DNA of 45,051 bases from a virus. Under the pieces are notes generated by a model. The model was not told the DNA's origin. It saw nothing but the letters and a program-made list of their open reading frames with translations, and did not search any database. The stretch covers positions 1-45,051 of the IMG/VR virus record IMGVR_UViG_3300046459_000765. One strand, 5' to 3'. A program made the position numbers and the translations under genes. Shown in pieces: positions 2,791 to 44,109 of this stretch. Numbering within the stretch: the first letter of the stretch is position 1; every line of letters starts with the position of its first letter.

Positions 2791-4143
2791 ATGCCGACGC
2801 TGCATGTGGACAAAAACGACCCCGAGTATCAGGCCTATTACAAGGCAGCGCGGTCGAAGTATGATAAGATGCCCACGCATCAGTTGCTCAACTCGTGGAA
2901 TGCCGAAGACCTGATTCACGAGCTGCAAGCCCAGAAAATGTTGGACGAGCGCAAGCTGTCCCCCGCTCTGCAACGCAACGCCGCGCTGAAGGCCCGCCAG
3001 GACTACACGAACTTGCTCAGCGGCGGCTCCAACGAAGAGGTGGCGAAGGTCCACGCGGCCGTCGCCGCGCACGAGGGCTATGAGCTGCCCACGAAGCCGG
3101 ACGGCACGGTTGACCGCCCCGCCGCGCTCAAGAACATTTTGCTCGCCACCCAGTCCAAGGAAAAGCGCGAGCACGACCGCCAGATGGCGCTCTCGGCCTC
3201 GGAACATACCACGACGACCGTTTTGCCTTCGGGCCAGAAGACCGTCATGGGCCAGATGATTACCAAAGAGGGCACCCCCGTAGGACCCACCCGCACGGTG
3301 GAATCCGCCGCGCCGAATGCGCCCAAAGCGATTGATGAGCTGGTCCAGCAGAAGGACAAGAAGAATCACGAGCGCGGGCTTGATACTGCTCTCGGTGCGC
3401 TCCGCGTCGCGCGCAACGTGCTGTCGAATCCCACGCCGTCAAACGCCGAGGATGGCCTGCTCATCGATTCCTTTTTGAAGGCCGCGAATCCTTCGGCCGT
3501 CATTCGTCCATCGATGATTGACTTCGTGCAGAAGCAAACGCCGTTCGCCGAACAGCTCAAGAAAAAGCTGGACAACTTTATGACGCTGCCGAACCGGGAC
3601 CAGCTTCCCGCCGGGGCAATCCTCACGGAGAACGACCGTCGCCAGATGGCGCAGGCTTTTCAGCAATACAACCAAGCGGTGTCCGAGGATTCCCGCGACC
3701 ATTACAAATTCATTCAGAAGCGCGCCGAGAAACAGAACATCGGAAACGACCTGGACGAGGTCCTCACGGACGAGGAGATGAACGTGCTCAACGGGAAAAC
3801 CTTTGTTCAGCTTCCGAACCGCGATGCGGTGACCAAACGCGTCGTGGCGACTCCAGCAGCCCCGGCAGCCGCTCCCGCCGCTGCGCCAGTAGCAGCCGCG
3901 CCCGCCGCGGCAGCTGCGGCGCCAGCCGCAGGCACGGGTGCGTCGCTCGTGAAGCAAATCCCGGTCGTCAACTCGCCGGCCGAGGCCCCCGACGACGCAG
4001 AGTTTTACATGTCGCCGGACGGTCGCAAATTCGTGAACCGAAAATACAAGGGCAACCTGCCTGCCGCTCCGGCCCCTGCCGCTGAGCCGGCGCCCGCCCC
4101 GTCCGAAGCAGACATCCCCGTGTTGCCAGTCGAAGCCCGCTAA
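2791..4143 (+). CDS. Hypothetical virion protein with Ala/Pro linker
   Basis: 450 residues. Residues 1-340 are mostly charged and helix-forming. They are followed by a low-complexity Ala/Pro linker (about 350-390, repeated PAAAP units), a short ordered patch with AEFYMSPDGRKFVNRKYKG-like character and another Pro/Ala tail. No catalytic motif is visible. It sits immediately before the giant polyvalent protein, joined by a TAA-TTT-ATG junction. Its neighbours and lack of a signal peptide fit an internal virion or ejection-apparatus protein; this is inference from context. Confidence 0.75.
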   Translation: MPTLHVDKNDPEYQAYYKAARSKYDKMPTHQLLNSWNAEDLIHELQAQKMLDERKLSPALQRNAALKARQDYTNLLSGGSNEEVAKVHAAVAAHEGYELPTKPDGTVDRPAALKNILLATQSKEKREHDRQMALSASEHTTTTVLPSGQKTVMGQMITKEGTPVGPTRTVESAAPNAPKAIDELVQQKDKKNHERGLDTALGALRVARNVLSNPTPSNAEDGLLIDSFLKAANPSAVIRPSMIDFVQKQTPFAEQLKKKLDNFMTLPNRDQLPAGAILTENDRRQMAQAFQQYNQAVSEDSRDHYKFIQKRAEKQNIGNDLDEVLTDEEMNVLNGKTFVQLPNRDAVTKRVVATPAAPAAAPAAAPVAAAPAAAAAAPAAGTGASLVKQIPVVNSPAEAPDDAEFYMSPDGRKFVNRKYKGNLPAAPAPAAEPAPAPSEADIPVLPVEAR

Positions 4144-18142: not shown

Positions 18143-18336
18143 TCTTTGTCCCTCCCGCACCACGTCATGTGGTCACCGGGCGAGGCGATGCAGGCACCGC
18201 AGTCCGAGCATACCGGTATCTCGCCACACTTCTTGCAGACATAGCCCCAGACGTGGCGCTGGACACCGACCCCGATGTCCACCTCGTCGGCGCACTCCAC
18301 CGCGTCCGTTGTCCCGCAGATTGGGCATTTACACAT
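18139..18336 (-). CDS. Small zinc-ribbon protein
   Basis: 65 residues from ATG18336. Four Cys-x2-Cys-like pairs: CKCPIC, CKKC and CSDCGAC, plus a late WCGRD. This is consistent with two zinc knuckles, and the protein probably binds nucleic acid or protein. The longer open frame upstream is inside the AP2-HNH gene and is not used. It overlaps that gene by 8 bases and couples to the RuvC-like gene by GTGA. Confidence 0.72.
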   Translation of the reverse strand: MCKCPICGTTDAVECADEVDIGVGVQRHVWGYVCKKCGEIPVCSDCGACIASPGDHMTWCGRDKE

Positions 18337-18802
18337 AAAAATTAAGGTTTGCAAATTTTCCAAAAGTTTCTCGGGCGACCGTGTCGTATGCTCGCGCGGC
18401 CTCTTCCGGGGTGTCATACAGCCCCACATATTTCTTCCCCACCTGCGTCTGCCAGCGACCGCCTCTGTGTCTGGTGACGCCCTTAAACCCGCTTGTTGAG
18501 ACAATGTTTTTCTTTCGGTTGGCCCCGTTTTCTTTTGATGACGCGATTCGCAAATTGTCGCGACAGTTGTTTAGCCCATCCCCGTCCTTGTGGTCCGCCT
18601 TTATCCGGGGGTCCGTCAACCCCAGAATTACCCGATGCATTTGCGCCTGAGTTGGGCGACTGCCACGGGGCAGTGGGGCGGACGCGTAAAAGGTCCTCCA
18701 GTCCGGACGGGCATACCACCGAAAATTCCGAACCTTTTCAAAGTCCGAAAAGTCCACCACTGCGACCTTGCCTTTGGTCAGGGGAACAAAAACAATTTCC
18801 AT
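18329..18802 (-). CDS. HNH endonuclease with AP2 domain
   Basis: 157 residues. The N-terminal strand-rich part (FVPLTKGKVAVVDFSDFE, then FRWYA) leads to the HNH core: MHRVILG, then ADHKDGDGLNNCRDNLR (about 85-105). The C-terminal AP2-type DNA-binding domain reads GFKGVTRHRGGRWQTQV, then YVGLYDTPEEAARAYD and KFANLNF. This is the standard layout of free-standing AP2-HNH homing endonucleases. It lies between the sigma factor and a zinc-ribbon/RuvC pair and has two relatives in this window (25749-26267, 27877-28365). Confidence 0.92.
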   Translation of the reverse strand: MEIVFVPLTKGKVAVVDFSDFEKVRNFRWYARPDWRTFYASAPLPRGSRPTQAQMHRVILGLTDPRIKADHKDGDGLNNCRDNLRIASSKENGANRKKNIVSTSGFKGVTRHRGGRWQTQVGKKYVGLYDTPEEAARAYDTVARETFGKFANLNFYV

Positions 18803-19583: not shown

Positions 19584-21805
19584 TGTTTTTCGTAGGGGTT
19601 GTTGGGGGTCTGCTTGATTGTCTTGGCGACCGGTCCCTTCGGGTAACGGTTGCCCCGGCAAATTCGGAACGTGCGGCGGAACTCGCCGCCCAGGATTTCG
19701 ATGTCGAAACCTTTTTGCGCCAGCTCGGGGAGCGTCTTGCTCAGCGTGTCCGCCGTCGTGCGGCCCATGGCCTCGCGCATCTGGCAGTCGATGGCCATGG
19801 ACTGGTAGAGCTGGTAGGCGGTGCCTTCCCAGCAGTCGTGCTCGGGATGCTTCTCGACAAAATACTGGCGCATCCACTCGTCCACCTGCTCGCCGATACT
19901 GGCGCTCAGCGATGATTGGTTGGCCTCGATGACCAGGGACGTGTCGTGGTAATGAATGGGGCCGAAGCGCTTTTCCGTGCCCATGCGGTGCGCCGGGATT
20001 TCGTAATCCAACAGGAACTTCCCGAAGTAGGGCAGCTCCTGGACTAGCGTGCGGGCGATTTCGCTGCGCTCCGGAAAAACGAACCCGTCGGTGCGCAGGA
20101 TGGTGCAGCAGTAAAGATTCAGCTTGTCCATGTTCGACATGCCCAGCTCCGGCAAGTGCCGCAGGCTGGCCGCGTCGTTGTTGAGCGACACCCAGATGCG
20201 GCCGGCCCAGTCGAGGAGTCCCGCCGCGCGGAACTTCTCGTTGGAACGGAACGCTTGATTGGCACAGCATCTTTTCAGCATCTCAGTGTAGATACGATGC
20301 GAGCGCGCGTCAAGCCCCATTGTGTTATCGTCGATGGCCCAATTGAAGACCTCGAACAACTCGCTGTTGAACTGGTCGCGGCCCATCATCCAGTCCTGGC
20401 ACTCCGCGTAGCCGTTGAACAGCGCGCCGATGATGTAGCGCGTGTTGAGCGTTTTGCCGCAGCTCGGCGGACCGACGAAAACGGATACCTGCCCGGGCTG
20501 CGGGGCGCGGTTGAACGCGCAGCGGAAAGCATAGGAGAGGTGCGACAGATACGCGACGAGGGCCTCCGGGGACGTCAGCCAGCCGTCGTAAAACTTGGCG
20601 ATGAAGGGGAACTTGTCGCCCCACTTCTGGATGCCCGGTGCCGGGGTCAGCACGTCGCGGTTGTGGATGTTGAGAAATGTTTTGCCGTAGCGTTCCATGA
20701 TGCCTTTGGGGTAGAAGGAGAAACTCCCGGCCGACGTGATGTGGCCTTTGTTTTGGATGAAGGAGATGGCCTCGTCCACGGGCGAAGCGTTGCGGCCCTT
20801 GGGCCGGCGGTCGGAGAGCCCGCGCTCGCAGCGCAGGTGGCGCGACAGGTCGTCCGCGCCGCCGAATAGCCACTTGCCCTCAGACTGTTTCCGGATGAAC
20901 TGCCGGCCGTCGTAGTAGATGCCCTCGACCGCGTTGCCCAGCAGCTTCAGCTGATACTCGGCCACGAACTGCGCGCCGAAAAAGTCGGCCCAGAGCATGC
21001 GCGGCTTGTGCGAGGCGTGGTTGGCGAACGAATAGATTCCCACGTCGTTCACGATGGCCGACTTCGCGCTCGTAGATTCCGGTTCCCAGAAGGTCGGCCC
21101 GACGGCGTCCTTCTTGAACTCTGACTTCCACTCGGTCACGAACCGGGGATACATTTCTTTCAGCTTCGCCTCGACCACGTCGAACGGGATTTTGATGGCG
21201 TCCTTGGTGTCTGCCCAGTTGAACTTCTTGACGATGGCCATTTGCCAGCCAATGAGCAGGTCCGCCGCGATTGGGGTGTCGTGAATTTTTTCCCAGCGGC
21301 AGCCGTTGGTGTAGTAGCGGGTCGCCGAGGTCACGGCGCCCTCGTCCACGCCAGGGCACTGGCGATACGGCAGCAGCTCGTGCAGGTGTTCGAGCACGAA
21401 CTTCGCGAAGTCGGCATCGCCCAGGAAACCGATGGGCACCGCAAACAACCAGACCAGCCGGTAGTGGCCGGAAAAAGTGGTCTCGATGTAGTTTGGTCGG
21501 CGGTCGCCCATGCGCAGCAGCGCCCCGTCCAGCTCGGGCCGCGTCAGCTTCACGTCCACGTCGATGGCCGCGGCGCGGGCGTCGTGGGGCGGGTTCTCTT
21601 TGCTGATGCGCAGGTTCGGGTTGACGCCCTGGAAGCACGAATACATTTCGAACGTCGTCGCCGGCATGTTCGCCCACTTGTCGCGAACCGCCTTATCCGA
21701 GAAGGCCTCCGGGGGAACCGCTCCCAGGTTCGCCGGACCGAATTCCCACGGGACACATGAAGTCACTTCATGTGAGCTGAGGTTGCGCAGACAGAAAAGT
21801 TTCAT
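19580..21805 (-). CDS. Primase-polymerase/SF3-type replicative helicase
   Basis: 741 residues. The N-half looks like an archaeo-eukaryotic primase: D82-V-D84 in AAIDVDV, H114 in FSGHYRLVWLF, and RYYTNGCRW near 160-170. The C-half is a D5-like SF3 helicase with Walker A VGPPSCGKT (K451), Walker B-like NWAIDDN (near 490) and a sensor-like Asn in WVSLNNDA. It should unwind and prime DNA at the phage fork. It follows the DNA polymerase directly (ATGA) and precedes the sigma factor. The length is normal for phage primase-helicase fusions. Confidence 0.87.
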   Translation of the reverse strand: MKLFCLRNLSSHEVTSCVPWEFGPANLGAVPPEAFSDKAVRDKWANMPATTFEMYSCFQGVNPNLRISKENPPHDARAAAIDVDVKLTRPELDGALLRMGDRRPNYIETTFSGHYRLVWLFAVPIGFLGDADFAKFVLEHLHELLPYRQCPGVDEGAVTSATRYYTNGCRWEKIHDTPIAADLLIGWQMAIVKKFNWADTKDAIKIPFDVVEAKLKEMYPRFVTEWKSEFKKDAVGPTFWEPESTSAKSAIVNDVGIYSFANHASHKPRMLWADFFGAQFVAEYQLKLLGNAVEGIYYDGRQFIRKQSEGKWLFGGADDLSRHLRCERGLSDRRPKGRNASPVDEAISFIQNKGHITSAGSFSFYPKGIMERYGKTFLNIHNRDVLTPAPGIQKWGDKFPFIAKFYDGWLTSPEALVAYLSHLSYAFRCAFNRAPQPGQVSVFVGPPSCGKTLNTRYIIGALFNGYAECQDWMMGRDQFNSELFEVFNWAIDDNTMGLDARSHRIYTEMLKRCCANQAFRSNEKFRAAGLLDWAGRIWVSLNNDAASLRHLPELGMSNMDKLNLYCCTILRTDGFVFPERSEIARTLVQELPYFGKFLLDYEIPAHRMGTEKRFGPIHYHDTSLVIEANQSSLSASIGEQVDEWMRQYFVEKHPEHDCWEGTAYQLYQSMAIDCQMREAMGRTTADTLSKTLPELAQKGFDIEILGGEFRRTFRICRGNRYPKGPVAKTIKQTPNNPYEKQ

Positions 21806-22701
21806 TTGCAGTAGCAGGGGACCTCGTTGGCTTCCGCCGTCACGGGGCAGCCCTTGAGCCAGGGCGGGGCGATGGACATGATGTCACGGACCTGTTTCGC
21901 GGTGATGTAGTCCTCGCACTCCAGGACCACCTCGTCGTGGACGGTGAACAGGATGCGGATGCCCGGCGTCTTGTCGAGCAAAAGCATGTGGAACCCGAAC
22001 ACGTCGCGCGCGGTGGCCTGCACCAAATTTTCACAGAGGAGACCACCGTAGAAAACGCTGCGCACGCCGCCCACGTCCGCGGTGTAAACCAGCTTGCGCT
22101 TCATGGCGCCCGTCAGCTCGCCGCTCTCGTCCGTCTCGGGCACCAGCCGCCACTCGGACCGCACGTCGCGATAAACCATGAAGCGACCGGACGGCAGCTG
22201 CATGCGGAAGTCGCCACCGCACGCCGCCTTGAAGCCCTCGTCAAGCTGCCGCCAGAGGTTCACGATGCCCGGGTTCGAGTCGCGAAAGTCTTTCACGATG
22301 CGCCGGGAATTCTTGCCGTAGCCGGACACCATCTTCGGCGTGCCGTCCTCATTCCAGCACAGCTCCCCGTCGCGGGTCATTTTTTGCTCGAATTCCGGGT
22401 CGCCCTTGGTGATGTCCAGGCCGGCCACATTTTTGGCCATCGTGATGAACTTCAGCCAGCCGGCGCCGAAGCCCAGCCCGAGGACGCGAACCTTGGCCAG
22501 CGAATAAATGTTGCCGGATTCTTTTTTCAGGTCGCCCAAGACCCAGTCGATGTGCGACGGGGTCCATTCCATGGACGCCTTGGCGTGCGCGACATACGGC
22601 GAGTCGCCGGCAGCCATCGCGTCCAGGGCCACCTTGTCGTTGACCAGCCACGCCAGCACGCGCGGCTCAATTTGGCTGAGGTCGGAGACGATTAGTTTCA
22701 T
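21802..22701 (-). CDS. Family A DNA polymerase, C-terminal (palm/fingers) subunit
   Basis: 299 residues. It carries motif A at its very start (IVSDLSQIEPRVLAWL, D7), motif B (AKVRVLGLGFGAG, K70-G81) and motif C (FTVHDEVVLE, H255-D256-E257). These are the two metal-binding aspartates and the nucleotide-contacting Lys. The exonuclease and thumb are missing here and are encoded by the preceding gene. The two frames overlap by one base (TGATG), so translation is probably coupled and the products must join to give an active enzyme. ATGA connects it to the helicase gene downstream. Confidence 0.92.
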   Translation of the reverse strand: MKLIVSDLSQIEPRVLAWLVNDKVALDAMAAGDSPYVAHAKASMEWTPSHIDWVLGDLKKESGNIYSLAKVRVLGLGFGAGWLKFITMAKNVAGLDITKGDPEFEQKMTRDGELCWNEDGTPKMVSGYGKNSRRIVKDFRDSNPGIVNLWRQLDEGFKAACGGDFRMQLPSGRFMVYRDVRSEWRLVPETDESGELTGAMKRKLVYTADVGGVRSVFYGGLLCENLVQATARDVFGFHMLLLDKTPGIRILFTVHDEVVLECEDYITAKQVRDIMSIAPPWLKGCPVTAEANEVPCYCK

Positions 22702-23882
22702 CAGTATGCCTCTCCTACGTAGGTCCGGCCATCCGGGGTCCTCTGCAAATATGGATTATCCTCCGCCCGTGGTTCGGGCTTGGGGTCTGGGCGGGCGACG
22801 ATTAGTTTGCGAATGTCGAGGACCGTGGTGGCATCACTCTTGTTCTCGGTGAGCACGCCGGCCGCGGTAACGAACAGGGGCACCTTGCGGAAGTTTTGAA
22901 AATTGAGTCCCGAGTCGCCGGACCAGCGGCCGGTGTGCGCGCCAAAATACTTCAGGCCGAAGGGCATCGTGCCGTCCTCGCGCACGCGGATTTTGAAGGT
23001 CTTCAGCGTGGCGAGCAGCTTGTTCACCTGCCGCCAGTCGCCCACCGCTTTTATCCACGGGTGCGCGGGAGAATACTGCGCTTCCCAGGCATCGAACGCG
23101 TCCACGCCCTCGCGGGATTTCACCGGCGGGCAGGGGATGTTGCACTTGCGGCATTCCTCGGCCATGGCCTTGGGCGACGTGGGCGGCGCGCCGCGGGACG
23201 TCCAGGGCAGCGCGTATTGGCAGGTGATGACCAGCGTCTCGGCGACGCGGATGTATTCGTTCAGCAGCTCAACATCGATTTGCACGCCGCGCAGGCACTG
23301 GTCGATGGTGATACGGGACAGCTCGCGCTCCGACTCCGGCCACTCCGCGCCGAACTTATCCCAAAGCGTCCAGCACCGAAAAGCGTCGCCGCGCCCGTAG
23401 TCGAGCATGCGGTCCCAGCCCAGCTTGTCGGCCTTCAGTTCCTCTGTCGTTTTGCCGTTGGCCTCGCTGCGCGTGGACTTGTCCACCGAGATGTCGAGCA
23501 GGAACGCGCACGCGTCATCCAGCGCGCGCCGGTTGCAGAGGTAGGACGAGAGGTTCGCCGTGCAGTGCCACGCCTTGATGCGTTTCTGCGGTGCCCAGCC
23601 CCGGCGGACCATCTCGTTGTAAACGGTTTGTTCGAACGCGGCGTTGTGCGCGGTGAGCGTGGCCGTGTTGCCCGGCCCCCACACGCGCTCGTCTTCCAGG
23701 GAGTCCCAGTTGAAATTTTTCGGTGGGCCGGCCCAGGAATTCGCGCCGTCGCTCACCGACAGCAAGTAGGGGTCGAAACGCTCGTCCCGGACGTAACGCT
23801 CGGCCCCCAGATGCTGAATGTCGTATTTCAGCTTCGTGTCGTAGTAGGTTTCCCAGTCGAAGCCGAGGTGCGTTATCATCAC
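22701..23882 (-). CDS. Family A DNA polymerase, N-terminal (3'-5' exonuclease/thumb) subunit
   Basis: 393 residues (GTG23882 or ATG23879). The proofreading exonuclease has motif I FDWET (D9, E11), motif II HNAAFE (N80, E84) and motif III Y162GRGD166. The thumb and the start of the palm follow, ending with HTGRWSGDSGLNFQNFRK (near 320-340), DIRKLIVARP and a Pro/charged tail. It stops exactly where an intact polymerase would enter motif A, which opens the next gene. A class I promoter element lies directly upstream with 1-4 bases to the start codon, so the mRNA is probably leaderless. Confidence 0.9.
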   Translation of the reverse strand: MMITHLGFDWETYYDTKLKYDIQHLGAERYVRDERFDPYLLSVSDGANSWAGPPKNFNWDSLEDERVWGPGNTATLTAHNAAFEQTVYNEMVRRGWAPQKRIKAWHCTANLSSYLCNRRALDDACAFLLDISVDKSTRSEANGKTTEELKADKLGWDRMLDYGRGDAFRCWTLWDKFGAEWPESERELSRITIDQCLRGVQIDVELLNEYIRVAETLVITCQYALPWTSRGAPPTSPKAMAEECRKCNIPCPPVKSREGVDAFDAWEAQYSPAHPWIKAVGDWRQVNKLLATLKTFKIRVREDGTMPFGLKYFGAHTGRWSGDSGLNFQNFRKVPLFVTAAGVLTENKSDATTVLDIRKLIVARPDPKPEPRAEDNPYLQRTPDGRTYVGEAY

Positions 23883-23883
23883 T

Positions 23884-23915
23884 TATCCCAGTGTGGAGTT
23901 TCCCGAAAATGTCAA
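23884..23915 (-). promoter_or_regulatory. Class I repeated promoter element, site A
   Basis: TTGACA (23915-23910), 13 bases, CCACACTGGGATA (23896-23884) on the minus strand, then 1-4 bases to the polymerase start. One of five near-identical copies. No TATAAT-like hexamer sits at the usual 17-base spacing; ACTGGG does. Confidence 0.75.
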
Positions 23916-24945: not shown

Positions 24946-25752
24946 TTACTGCGCGCCGATGATTGCTTTGATGAACCCTTGGAAGAGGTCACCATTCTTC
25001 GTCGAGGCCCGCAGCTTCGGTTCGAAGTAATAGTTGTCGTCCTTGGACTGCTTGGTCGTGGTCAGCGTCCAGGAGTGCGTGAGGTATCCCTTCCGAAGGG
25101 AACCGATTTTCTTCTGCGTGCGGATGGCCTTGGCACCCTTGGTGTAGGCCGAGCCCTTCATGCCCCAGAGCGCGAGCGTGAAGTAGCGCGAAGGCTGCCC
25201 TTCGACCTCGAACACATACGGGAAGTCCAGCTGGTCCGGGTCCGCGTAGAAGTCCGGCTTCTCCACGAGGAGGAGCGCAGTGGCGAGCGTCTGGAAGTAG
25301 CGCAGCGGGCTCCCGCTGGACTTCGAGGCGTCCCATTCCTTCCAGCTCAGCGTGCCGTTGTGCTTGACCACTTCGGACTCGCTGTTGACGAGCAGACCCT
25401 GCTTGCCGCCGGGCAGCTTCTCCGCGTATTGCAGCGGACGAAAGCCGATGACCGTGAGGTTGAGCGGGGGCGTGCCCTTGTCCGTCTTGCTCTCGGGCGT
25501 GTGGATGACGTTTTGCGACGCCAACAGGATGGACCCGGGGTCGAAGCCCTGTTCGGTGGCCAGCTTGCCGACGAACTGGACGATGTTGATTCGCGGGAAG
25601 ACGATGTCTTCGTAGCGAATGTTGTCCTCATCGAAAAAGCCGGGGGTGGCTTCGCGGGTGGCGACTTCAGTTGACGCGGCCGGCGTCTCGGGTGCCGGGG
25701 GAACCGGCGTCGTGGTATCTTCCACGCCTTCTTTGACAAAACTCATGTTCAT
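24946..25752 (-). CDS. Probable single-stranded DNA-binding protein
   Basis: 268 residues. An acidic/Pro-rich N-terminus (1-40) is followed by a beta-rich core (about 45-260) with alternating hydrophobic strands and aromatic residues, for example VFPRINIVQFVG, PYVFEVEGQPSRYFTLALWG and HSWTLTTT. It lacks a classical acidic C-tail. It sits directly after a Cas4-like nuclease (with an AP2-HNH gene between) and has its own strong terminator. Both are typical for the highly expressed SSB of a phage replication module. The SSB call is from context and composition; no diagnostic motif exists. Confidence 0.55.
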   Translation of the reverse strand: MNMSFVKEGVEDTTTPVPPAPETPAASTEVATREATPGFFDEDNIRYEDIVFPRINIVQFVGKLATEQGFDPGSILLASQNVIHTPESKTDKGTPPLNLTVIGFRPLQYAEKLPGGKQGLLVNSESEVVKHNGTLSWKEWDASKSSGSPLRYFQTLATALLLVEKPDFYADPDQLDFPYVFEVEGQPSRYFTLALWGMKGSAYTKGAKAIRTQKKIGSLRKGYLTHSWTLTTTKQSKDDNYYFEPKLRASTKNGDLFQGFIKAIIGAQ

Positions 25753-26267
25753 GGTTTTTGGATTTTTGGTTGCGGTTTGCTAATGGGAAAATTCAAGCAA
25801 GCGAACTCCCCAAAGTATTTCAACGCGGCGGCATCATAAGCGCGCGCCGCCACCTCGGGTTCCGAAAAGGTCCCCAGATATTCGGTTCGGTCGCCGACCT
25901 TTATTTGGGCGCGCCACTTCCCCCTAATTAGATAGGCTCCTTTAAAGGGGTGTGGCGAAGATTTTCTACGGGCGCAGTTTGTGCCGTTCTGGGCCTTCGT
26001 TGCCCAGCGCAAATTTGCTCTCCGGTTATCGAGGGTGTCCCGATTGCGGTGGTCAATTATGTCCCCGGGGTCCGCCTCAGCCACCAACCGGTGCAGATAC
26101 ACTTGGCGATGCGCCTTTCGGCCCCCAGAATTCCTCACTGCATACCACAGCCCTCCTGGAGTTTTTTGTTTCGCGAACCACCGGAACCCGCGCACCAGTT
26201 CAAGGTCGAAGAAGTCGATAACAGTCACCTTCCCGCGGGACAGTGGCAAGAACACCTCAGCGCTCAT
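25749..26267 (-). CDS. HNH endonuclease with AP2 domain
   Basis: 172 residues. VFLPLSRGKVTVIDFFDLE and FRWFA at the N-terminus, HNH core YLHRLVAEADPGDIIDHRN, then DNRRANLRWATKAQN (about 55-90). AP2 domain at about 105-160: FKGAYLIRGKWRAQIKV, YLGTFSEPEVAARAYD, FGEFACLNF. It is inserted between the Cas4-like nuclease and the SSB-like gene with ATGA overlaps on both sides, so it travels in the operon rather than in an intron. Confidence 0.92.
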   Translation of the reverse strand: MSAEVFLPLSRGKVTVIDFFDLELVRGFRWFAKQKTPGGLWYAVRNSGGRKAHRQVYLHRLVAEADPGDIIDHRNRDTLDNRRANLRWATKAQNGTNCARRKSSPHPFKGAYLIRGKWRAQIKVGDRTEYLGTFSEPEVAARAYDAAALKYFGEFACLNFPISKPQPKIQKP

Positions 26268-27445: not shown

Positions 27446-27451
27446 TACATC

Positions 27452-27483
27452 TATCCCAGTGTGGGGTTTTCGAAAAATGTCAA
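27452..27483 (-). promoter_or_regulatory. Class I repeated promoter element, site B
   Basis: TTGACA (27483-27478), 13 bases, CCACACTGGGATA (27464-27452), 6 bases to ATG27445 of the Cas4-like gene. It also overlaps the last codons and stop of the gene at 27480. Confidence 0.75.
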
Positions 27484-27665: not shown

Positions 27666-27889
27666 TGGTCATTCACCTCCTCTTCGAAATACGGTCCGGA
27701 CATCCAGTGGATGTCTCGGTAAGTTGTCAGCCGTTCGGGCTCTATGCGCCGACGCCAGCGTCGCAGGAACTTCGTCCTTCGCTTGCGCGACCAGCCGGCG
27801 CGCAGCTGTCCCGGACGGAAAAGCAGCCCCGCCTCTTCGGTGGTGACGCACCACGCGGTGTTCAGCCGCCTAGTATTCAAGGCAGGCAT
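27656..27889 (-). CDS. Hypothetical Arg-rich protein, 77 aa
   Basis: Start at ATG27889 (MPALNTRRLNTAWC). Strongly basic centre (SRKRRTKFLRRWRRRIEP) and acidic C-terminus (FEEEVND). No family recognised. It overlaps the AP2-HNH gene by 13 bases; the longer open frame upstream lies inside that gene and is rejected. Confidence 0.62.
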   Translation of the reverse strand: MPALNTRRLNTAWCVTTEEAGLLFRPGQLRAGWSRKRRTKFLRRWRRRIEPERLTTYRDIHWMSGPYFEEEVNDQCL

Positions 27890-28365
27890 GATGGAAAATT
27901 CGGTCGAGCGAACTCGCCGAAATGCTGGACAGCGGCCCTGTCGTAAGCCCGCGCCGCTTGAGTTATCGTTTCGAACACCCCAAGATGCTGATGTTTTCCG
28001 TTCACCCGGATTTCGGCTCGCCACTTGGCTCCGCACACCGCCACACCTTTATATGGATGCCGGGCGCCCGCGTATCGCTTCGCGTTCGCGATGTTCTGAG
28101 AGTTATTAGCTAGCCGGAGGTTTTCTTTTCGGTTGTCGAGAGGATTTTGATTCTTGTGGTCCACGCGCTGTCCCGGGGTTGCCCCGAGAATTTCGCGGTG
28201 CATTTTTATTGTGACTCCCGCACGAACCGTCTGGGCATACCCGGTGTAAGGCGTTCCATTTTTCCGAACGCCGCCTGCATAAATCCAGTTCCACGCGACG
28301 ATGCGTTCGTAGTCATCGTCGTCCACGAGCGCGACCCTATTTTGCGTGAGGGGAATTTCTTTCAC
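27877..28365 (-). CDS. HNH endonuclease with AP2 domain
   Basis: 162 residues. EIPLTQNRVALVDDDDYERI and WNWIYA at the N-terminus, then HNH core MHREILGATPGQRVDHKN, DNRKENLRLANNSQN (about 55-90). AP2 domain: YKGVAVCGAKWRAEIRV, HLGVFETITQAARAYD, FGEFARPNF. Third member of the family in this window. ATGA overlap with the secreted protein gene upstream. Confidence 0.92.
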   Translation of the reverse strand: MKEIPLTQNRVALVDDDDYERIVAWNWIYAGGVRKNGTPYTGYAQTVRAGVTIKMHREILGATPGQRVDHKNQNPLDNRKENLRLANNSQNIANAKRYAGARHPYKGVAVCGAKWRAEIRVNGKHQHLGVFETITQAARAYDRAAVQHFGEFARPNFPSCLP

Positions 28366-31989: not shown

Positions 31990-32229
31990 TTATCCCAGTG
32001 TGGGTTTTTTCGGAAATGTCAACCCCTCCAGCTTGAAATTTTTCTTGGTGAAGAAGCGGCTGCTCCCCGCACGGTGGTCCACGATTAGCACCTCGCCGTT
32101 GTAAAAGCGCGCGACGATGAACGCCAATTGCTCACGCAATGCGGGCGGGATGGTGTTGTCGCCATAGTTCGGGAAACCGATTTCCACGAAGCGGGCGTCC
32201 AGTTCTTTTTCGAGTTTGTTAGGTTTCAT
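31990..32229 (-). CDS. Hypothetical protein, 79 aa
   Basis: From ATG32229 (MKPNKLEKELDARFVEIGFPNYG). Its C-terminal codons contain promoter site C. ATGA with the peptidase-like gene upstream. Charged, soluble, no recognised domain. Confidence 0.65.
   Translation of the reverse strand: MKPNKLEKELDARFVEIGFPNYGDNTIPPALREQLAFIVARFYNGEVLIVDHRAGSSRFFTKKNFKLEGLTFPKKPTLG
31991..32022 (-). promoter_or_regulatory. Class I repeated promoter element, site C
   Basis: TTGACA (32022-32017), 13 bases, CCACACTGGGATA (32003-31991), 4 bases to ATG31986. The element is also translated as the last residues (LTFPKKPTLG) of the gene at 31990-32229, so the promoter is built into coding sequence. Confidence 0.75.
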
Positions 32230-42813: not shown

Positions 42814-42820
42814 CTCTACC

Positions 42821-42852
42821 TATCCCAGTGTGGACTTTTTGGAAAATGTCAA
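42821..42852 (-). promoter_or_regulatory. Class I repeated promoter element, site D
   Basis: TTGACA (42852-42847), 13 bases, CCACACTGGGATA (42833-42821), 7 bases to ATG42813. It lies in the gap after the stop at 42857. Confidence 0.75.
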
Positions 42853-42856
42853 GAGG

Positions 42857-43543
42857 CTACCGGCAGGCGTGAAGAGAAATGGGCAGGCATCCGCGCCGTT
42901 CCGCCAAGGCATTCTCTTCGTCGCGCTGGTCGCATCGTTGCAGCCACGCCAGCAGGTGCGCGTGTAGTGGGTTCTCTTGGTCCAGGTCCGCAGACTCACA
43001 GCCCAAGCGTTCCTTTGCGAGGTCCACGGCGTTCCATGACGAGTGTTTGGTGCCGATGACGAGGAACCCCCGAAGCACAAGGGCGCACTTCATGTGGTCG
43101 ATTTCACATGCCAACCGCCCCCACGACAGCGCATGCGTGTTCGTGTTCACATAATTACCGCGGCTGGTCTGAATGCGAATGGCCCAGCGCCCGGCCTTAT
43201 GGCACCAGAAAAGCCCGCGGATGCGTCGCTCAGGTTCGTTTTCATCCAGGCCGCGCCATGTCGGTCCATCGTCCGGCCGCTCATACCGACGCGCCAGGGT
43301 AGGCGCGGCAACCAACGGCGGCGCGGCTGCCCGCTCCACCTCACCATTCCAGCGGTCACGCGTCTCGGGTTTCATACGCGAATCCGAAATGCGTTTGAGC
43401 ACCGCTTCCTTCCACTCGGCTAGCCGCTTGGCGGCGAATTCCACCGGCCCGCCGGTGCGTGTGTAGAGGTCCCATTCCCTCCACATCAGGCGCAGGGTAT
43501 GAAGGTCCGCGTTTAGGATGCGGGTGGTTTTGTAAGAGCGCAT
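42857..43543 (-). CDS. Hypothetical protein, 228 aa
   Basis: MRSYKTTRILNADLHTLRLM start. Helical first half; central segment GLFWCHKAGRWAIRIQTSRG, then a helical end with CDQRDEENALAERRG. The IRGLFWCHKAGRWAIRIQ stretch loosely resembles AP2-type DNA-binding sequences (G-x-[FY]-x-x-x-x-x-W) and could be a remnant of such a domain. It overlaps the endonuclease VII gene by 31 bases; the true start may be later (ATG43486). Confidence 0.62.
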   Translation of the reverse strand: MRSYKTTRILNADLHTLRLMWREWDLYTRTGGPVEFAAKRLAEWKEAVLKRISDSRMKPETRDRWNGEVERAAAPPLVAAPTLARRYERPDDGPTWRGLDENEPERRIRGLFWCHKAGRWAIRIQTSRGNYVNTNTHALSWGRLACEIDHMKCALVLRGFLVIGTKHSSWNAVDLAKERLGCESADLDQENPLHAHLLAWLQRCDQRDEENALAERRGCLPISLHACR

Positions 43544-43950
43544 GCTTCAGCGATGTCTGTGCGGTGTTCGTCGTGGTATTCCATTGCGCGCCGGCACCGC
43601 TCCCGGTCTTTCAGGAAACCGATTCCAGTGTTGCAGTTTTTGCAAAGCATCGCGCGAAACTTGCCGGAAGAATGACAATGGTCCACCACCAACTCCTCGA
43701 AAGGAAAAATGGTGCGGCAGATTGGGCACTGATAGGCTTGGTCCCGGGCTTTCTGGCGCACTTGTTCGGGCGTCACCCCATAGTGGTGCTTGCGGGCATA
43801 CTCCAGCGTCTTGTGCGGGTTTTTCTTTTGCCACTCCTTGGTCTTCTCAAGTGCGCACTTGCGACAGTAACCCACGCCCTTGTCCACAATAGAGGGTGAC
43901 GCGGTCGCGCTATTCAGATGCACTCCGCAGTTTGAGCATTCACATCTCAC
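43513..43950 (-). CDS. Endonuclease VII-type recombination endonuclease
   Basis: 145 residues from GTG43950. Two zinc knuckles: CECSNC with CRKC, then CPIC with CKNC. The core VVDHCHSSGKFRAMLCKNCN and GIGFLKD carries the D-H-C-H and N-x-G-x-G motif of T4 gp49-like resolvases. It cuts branched DNA, for example during packaging. The GTG is chosen because the longer frame would read through the promoter element; it is 3 bases after class I site E. Confidence 0.88.
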   Translation of the reverse strand: MRCECSNCGVHLNSATASPSIVDKGVGYCRKCALEKTKEWQKKNPHKTLEYARKHHYGVTPEQVRQKARDQAYQCPICRTIFPFEELVVDHCHSSGKFRAMLCKNCNTGIGFLKDRERCRRAMEYHDEHRTDIAEACALTKPPAS

Positions 43951-43953
43951 ACC

Positions 43954-43985
43954 TATCCCAGTGTGGCATTTTCCCAGATTGTCAA
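43954..43985 (-). promoter_or_regulatory. Class I repeated promoter element, site E
   Basis: TTGACA (43985-43980), 13 bases, CCACACTGGGATA (43966-43954), 3 bases to GTG43950. It abuts the inverted repeat and drives the leftward cluster from its right end. Confidence 0.75.
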
Positions 43986-43987
43986 GA

Positions 43988-44109
43988 CCGGAAGTCAACC
44001 AACTAACGCCGCCCCATATCCCCAGGGCCTACCACTTCTCTTTTTTTCTAATTTTTTATAATACCCTTTGGATTGGGATATGGGGCGGCGTTAGTTGGTT
44101 GACTTCCGG
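43988..44109. repeat. Perfect 35-bp inverted repeat around AT-rich centre
   Basis: Left arm 43988-44022 and right arm 44075-44109 are exact inverted complements (35 of 35 bases; arms begin CCGGAAGTCAACC and end TTGACTTCCGG). The 52-base spacer is AT-rich, with T7, T6 and TATAAT tracts. Each arm has a TTGACT pointing outward. The repeat lies between divergent transcription units, so it is not a simple end-of-operon terminator. A replication origin, packaging site or divergent control region are the candidates. Confidence 0.9.

Follow-up and report, generated by a model that had tools for sequence, protein, structure and literature searches.

Family A DNA polymerase genes divided in two just before motif A in a clade of bacterial viruses

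The stretch of DNA analysed here (the window; IMG/VR record IMGVR_UViG_3300046459_000765, 45,051 nucleotides) belongs to a bacterial virus in which the DNA polymerase is found as two neighbouring genes, both on the minus strand, rather than one. This leads to the question whether the two genes together specify one enzyme, and if so how such an arrangement came about. The reading that we favour, and hold to be very probable, is that ORF1 and ORF2 are one family A DNA polymerase, an obligate two-chain enzyme whose translation is coupled by the overlapping stop and start; the assembly of the two chains, their translational coupling and the activity of the enzyme are predicted from sequences and from models of the single chains. 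The layout of the pair is as follows.

22701-23882, minus strand: ORF1, 393 amino acids, GTG start, with an alternative ATG at 23879
21802-22701, minus strand: ORF2, 299 amino acids, ATG start
22699-22703, minus strand: TGATG, ORF1 stop and ORF2 start, one shared base (22701)

ORF1 contains the 3'-5' exonuclease, the thumb and the first palm strands of a family A DNA polymerase and ends in ...DIRKLIVARPDPKPEPRAEDNPYLQRTPDGRTYVGEAY before its stop, and ORF2, which begins with MKLIVSDLSQIEPRV, contains the remaining palm and the fingers and carries motifs A, B and C. In the window the two ORFs match adjoining ranges of phrog_17 (DNA polymerase), 668-1005 for ORF1 and 1007-1231 for ORF2, and over six records the halves tile this family at 658-1005 and 1003-1234. 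The Pfam family A model matched ORF2 alone of the two, and weakly. When the six records, four of which are 71-74 kb long and which may be incomplete, were searched for polymerases of families A and B, phrog_17 gave no further family A copy and no family B polymerase was found. Thus what is seen in these six records is what a naturally split phage polymerase should look like, that is, adjacent ORFs with complementary parts and no other copy, and the usual single-polypeptide polymerase domain is absent, a stop separating the two ORFs in all members of the clade described below. Against a collection of named phages the ORF1 query gave zero matches and the ORF2 query gave matches at about 24-35% identity and nothing closer. 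The initial annotation had described a polymerase divided at motif A, through TGATG, into two genes that look coupled, and, two points taken up below apart, its coordinates and its description are borne out by the sequence and by the phrog_17 matches.

The catalytic residues of the pair were located as listed here.

22681-22683, minus strand: motif A catalytic Asp, ORF2 D7, equivalent to Pol I D705, invariant in 54 sequences
22492-22494, minus strand: motif B Lys, ORF2 K70, equivalent to Pol I K758 in the profile alignment to Klenow, invariant in 54 sequences
21931-21939, minus strand: motif C His-Asp-Glu, ORF2 H255-E257, with H255 and D256 invariant and E257 nearly so in 54 sequences
23850-23858, minus strand: exo I, ORF1 D9 and E11, invariant in 52 sequences
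23631-23633, minus strand: exo II position, ORF1 Glu84, Asp in nearly all relatives
23385-23387, minus strand: exo III Asp, ORF1 D166, invariant

It had been stated that all exonuclease and polymerase motifs are present across the pair. This holds for the polymerase motifs and for exo I and exo III, and exo II is non-canonical: among the DEDD acidic ligands D9, E11 and D166 are there, and the fourth is Glu84 where the relatives have Asp, a substitution that may weaken proofreading. At residue 74 of ORF2 (22480-22482), there is a Leu which the profile alignment with Klenow sets opposite Pol I Phe762. The residue at this position has been linked to phage lifestyle.

Both halves are predicted by AlphaFold2 to fold with confidence, ORF2 with a pLDDT of 96 and a pTM of 0.90 and ORF1 with a pLDDT of 92. 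Residues 1-299 of the ORF2 model align with residues 699-926 of E. coli Pol I (Z 16.1, rmsd 2.7), and the model also aligns with Bst 647-876 and Taq 604-831, the comparisons with Klenow, Bst and Taq giving Z of about 16-18 and rmsd of about 2.5-3. The best Foldseek match of the ORF1 model is 7r0k, the Pol I of phage G20c, and Bst and DpoZ also match, although past about model residue 325 the ranges of these matches cannot be relied on, as the model includes the low-confidence tail. On the ORF1 side the profile reaches as far as Klenow index 375, corresponding to Pol I 698. Since ORF2 residue 1 corresponds to Pol I 699 and the ORF1-side profile stops at 698, the models and alignments put the cut in a surface turn between two palm strands, beside the active site. 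Neither chain alone is a complete polymerase because chain 1 has the thumb and the first palm strands while motif A belongs to chain 2, and for a working enzyme both chains would have to complete the palm. The proposal that the palm is built from two chains agrees with where the cut lies, and the two chains would probably assemble.

The same split is present in nine other IMG/VR contigs from nine datasets at 65-100% identity, one of them identical (3300046473_000471), two at 91-92%, three at 75%, one at 73% and two at 65-66%. A profile search through viral contigs and through prokaryote genomes, one for each species, gave relatives that are 30-53% identical, and nearly all of them have an uninterrupted single gene. 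In a tree of 91 polymerases the split ones form one clade with a support of 100, nested among 82 intact genes, so that the split needs a single change on this tree. The search for fused relatives that had been proposed thus yielded intact genes, the closest about 50% identical and including the contig of a Candidatus Peribacteraceae MAG (L176, 53%) and four viral contigs (L020-L023), as well as the nine split copies. Over all pairs of six members, dN/dS was 0.08-0.30 for ORF1 and 0.12-0.21 for ORF2, values which indicate that purifying selection is acting on both halves. The view that this is a functional split and not decay is upheld by conservation throughout the clade, by dN/dS in both halves, by the confident folds and by the lack of another polA copy in the records searched, and the polymerase is most likely functional.

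The junction between the halves varies within the clade. A clean ATGA overlap is found in 4 of the 9 relatives' contigs (L005, L006, L010 and L011), in three distinct sequences, while L007-L009 have a 79-codon ORF between the halves (235 nt) and L012 a 56-codon membrane-like ORF (166 nt); Pfam searches with the spacer ORFs of L007 and L012 gave nothing convincing. The window and L004 share an insertion.

22702-22787, minus strand: 86-nt insertion that gives ORF1 a 28-residue tail, absent from the 92%-identical L005 and L006

The tail encoded by this insertion is predicted at low confidence (pLDDT 41-60), and when the origin of the insertion was sought in the window and in the fetched loci no match beyond 11-14 nt was found. 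The Pro/charged tail of ORF1 pointed out earlier is therefore real in the window, but it is no part of the conserved split, being absent from relatives 92% identical. Just before motif A the intact relatives read PR(P/A)G(H/K)KM and the split members PRP(xx), stop, and then MK(L/M). From the presence of ATGA in three distinct branches of the clade and from the mutually unrelated spacers of the other members we infer by parsimony, which is not proof, that the overlap is ancestral in the clade and that the spacers and the tail came later. In the mechanism that we propose, an ancestral single gene would have been broken at the turn between the palm strand that ends in RP and the motif A strand, at about Pol I 698/699, through small changes that created an overlapping stop and start (ATGA). 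Ribosomes would then complete chain 1, with the exonuclease, the thumb and the first palm strands, and restart immediately on chain 2, with motif A, the fingers and motif C, and the new chains would pair by completing the palm sheet.

Split polymerases are already known from other phages. For the Methylophilales phages MEP401 and MEP402 (Zobellviridae) a split polymerase of family A has been published, and an intron was suggested (PMC10580990). Translation of the MEP401 record gave two ORFs with the cut just where the window has it, before motif A, ORF13 ending in ...NLQNFDGEIKTLFLSRYGE before its stop and ORF15 beginning with MILNADAKALEW. Among 80 contigs related to MEP401, 72 could be judged and all 72 were split at this position. 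Unlike in the window, however, a small ORF lies between the halves of MEP401, the spacers in its relatives range from -16 to 636 nt, and BLASTP against the window pair gave an E of 0.003 at 19% identity in one comparison and no match in the other. Because the proteins of the window clade are almost unrelated to those of MEP401 and have intact genes all around them on the tree, the simplest view is that their split arose independently of the MEP401 split; the clade would then be a separate lineage of a split-polymerase type that is already known. Alcaligenes phage vB_Af_QDWS535 (OK172329), on which no paper was found in a literature search, resembles the window in that two adjacent CDSs, both annotated as family A polymerase, overlap by TAATG, the first having an extra tail and the second beginning at motif A, whereas by sequence it falls on the MEP401 side (43% to MEP401 ORF13) and outside the clade of the window. 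In Vibrio phages ICP2 and Saratov-12 the family A polymerase is also in two ORFs, which are nearly adjacent in Saratov-12, but the cut is about 20 residues upstream of motif A, and in ICP2 there is an HNH gene in the gap and the polymerase is annotated as a joined CDS; a literature search on ICP2 returned herpesvirus papers only. Natural fission of an essential replication enzyme is also seen in the split family B polymerase gp43A/gp43B of Aeromonas phages 25 and 44RR and in the split NrdA of phage Aeh1, where the two phage 25 chains, 43A and 43B, were shown to purify together and to be active, as the split NrdA is (PMC2988022). These differ from the window in the polymerase family or the enzyme concerned and in the endonuclease gene or untranslated spacer that accompanies them. 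Streptococcus phage phiD12, with two CDSs annotated as phage polymerase, was considered and rejected, as its break comes after motif A and its products share sequence, which looks like a frameshift. In MW202697 (L197), an ORF annotated as R67 dihydrofolate reductase (3142-3348) lies between the polymerase halves.

How the gene came to be broken could be explained differently, namely by a homing endonuclease or an intron that inserted into it, split it and was later lost. The homing endonuclease had been suggested, with mention of three AP2-HNH genes nearby. These three genes are real and lie within the window, though none is at the junction, and in L011 an AP2-HNH gene directly follows ORF2. 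That the HNH gene gp51 sits between the polymerase halves of ICP2 while Saratov-12 has the same split without it, and that an HNH gene is inside the split of the MEP401-type contig L174, makes the idea a reasonable one in general, HNH genes occupying polymerase splits in other lineages, but it is unproven in the clade of the window. Here no endonuclease is at the junction in the window or in any of the nine relatives' contigs, the junction spacers are mutually unrelated and four contigs have no spacer, no Rfam intron was found in the window, L007, L010 or L012, and at the junctions of L005, L006, L010 and L011 the clean overlaps leave no space for one. Insertion followed by loss is thus unsupported in this clade, where the clean ATGA overlap looks ancestral, and we regard it as unlikely. 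The 45-kb record has, besides the three AP2-HNH genes, an endonuclease VII-like gene, the four being at 18329-18802, 25749-26267, 27877-28365 and 43513-43998.

As for the expression of the two ORFs, the following elements were identified.

22709-22716, minus strand: AGGAGAGG, resembling a Shine-Dalgarno sequence, 7 nt upstream of the ATG of ORF2
23883-23915, minus strand: 33-nt element starting with TTGACA, directly before ORF1

Shine-Dalgarno-like motifs precede ORF2 in the window, L007 and L010 and are absent before it in L005 and L011. Taken with the stop/start overlap, these motifs suggest that translation of ORF2 is coupled to that of ORF1. The 33-nt element is probably the promoter of the pair; it is found, with variation, also before ORF1 of L002/L003, L007-L010 and L012, and it was not found before ORF2. 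Should it be a promoter, transcripts would have almost no leader. Copies of this element, TTGACATTTTC...CCACACTGGGATA(A/G), are on the minus strand at 23883-23915, 27451-27483, 31990-32022 and 42820-42852, four genes thus having a copy that ends 0-6 nt upstream of their start codon where none is expected by chance; a weaker copy is at about 43985, and the element is found before the same genes in relatives.

Could the two frames instead be joined in a single protein, through programmed ribosomal frameshifting or splicing? In the window, L005, L010 and L011, ORF2 lies in the -1 frame and both frames are open together over a stretch that in the window measures 54 nt and leaves room for a non-canonical frameshift. 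However, the last 120 nt of ORF1 have no X-XXY-YYZ slippery heptamer in the members checked, and in L007-L009 and L012 the halves are 235 and 166 nt apart with other ORFs between them, so that a simple frameshift cannot fuse them there; splicing is countered by the lack of an Rfam intron noted above. A single fused product is hence very improbable. We give equally little credence to the two chains acting separately, ORF1 as a stand-alone exonuclease and ORF2 as a stand-alone polymerase: in its favour is the confident fold predicted for each half by itself, and against it are the separation of the thumb and first palm strands from motif A and the adjacency of the genes in every member. An error of sequencing or assembly, or gene decay, is almost certainly not the answer, for although a one-base overlap at a change of frame is how an indel error typically appears, the split recurs in nine other contigs with junction forms too varied to have arisen in parallel by error, both halves are under purifying selection and the polymerase catalytic residues are invariant.

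With the two-chain polymerase as the preferred reading, a polymerase with an active-site sheet made from two chains, which is passed on stably and kept under selection, would offer a natural case in which to study the passage of an essential enzyme from one chain to several subunits. That unrelated phage lineages share this cut suggests a break point that the structure tolerates, which would be useful for making split or conditionally active polymerases. As a speculation that is probably not correct as it stands, the turn before motif A might be a preferred natural break of phage family A polymerases, used in at least two independent lineages, and the split might be kept for the ratio that coupled translation fixes between the exonuclease-thumb chain and the catalytic chain, so that the phage would have a regulated and exchangeable two-subunit polymerase. 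On the practical side, gene callers and surveys for single-ORF polymerases will miss or mislabel split polymerases. Intact relatives at 30-40% identity (L178-L191) are in genomes of Verrucomicrobiota and Kiritimatiellota, which may hint at the hosts of this virus group. Finally, a second type of split is present in the related polymerases L063, L067, L072, L085 and L190, about 210 residues before motif A, where it parts the exonuclease from the thumb and palm, and in L063 and L085 there are other ORFs between the parts.
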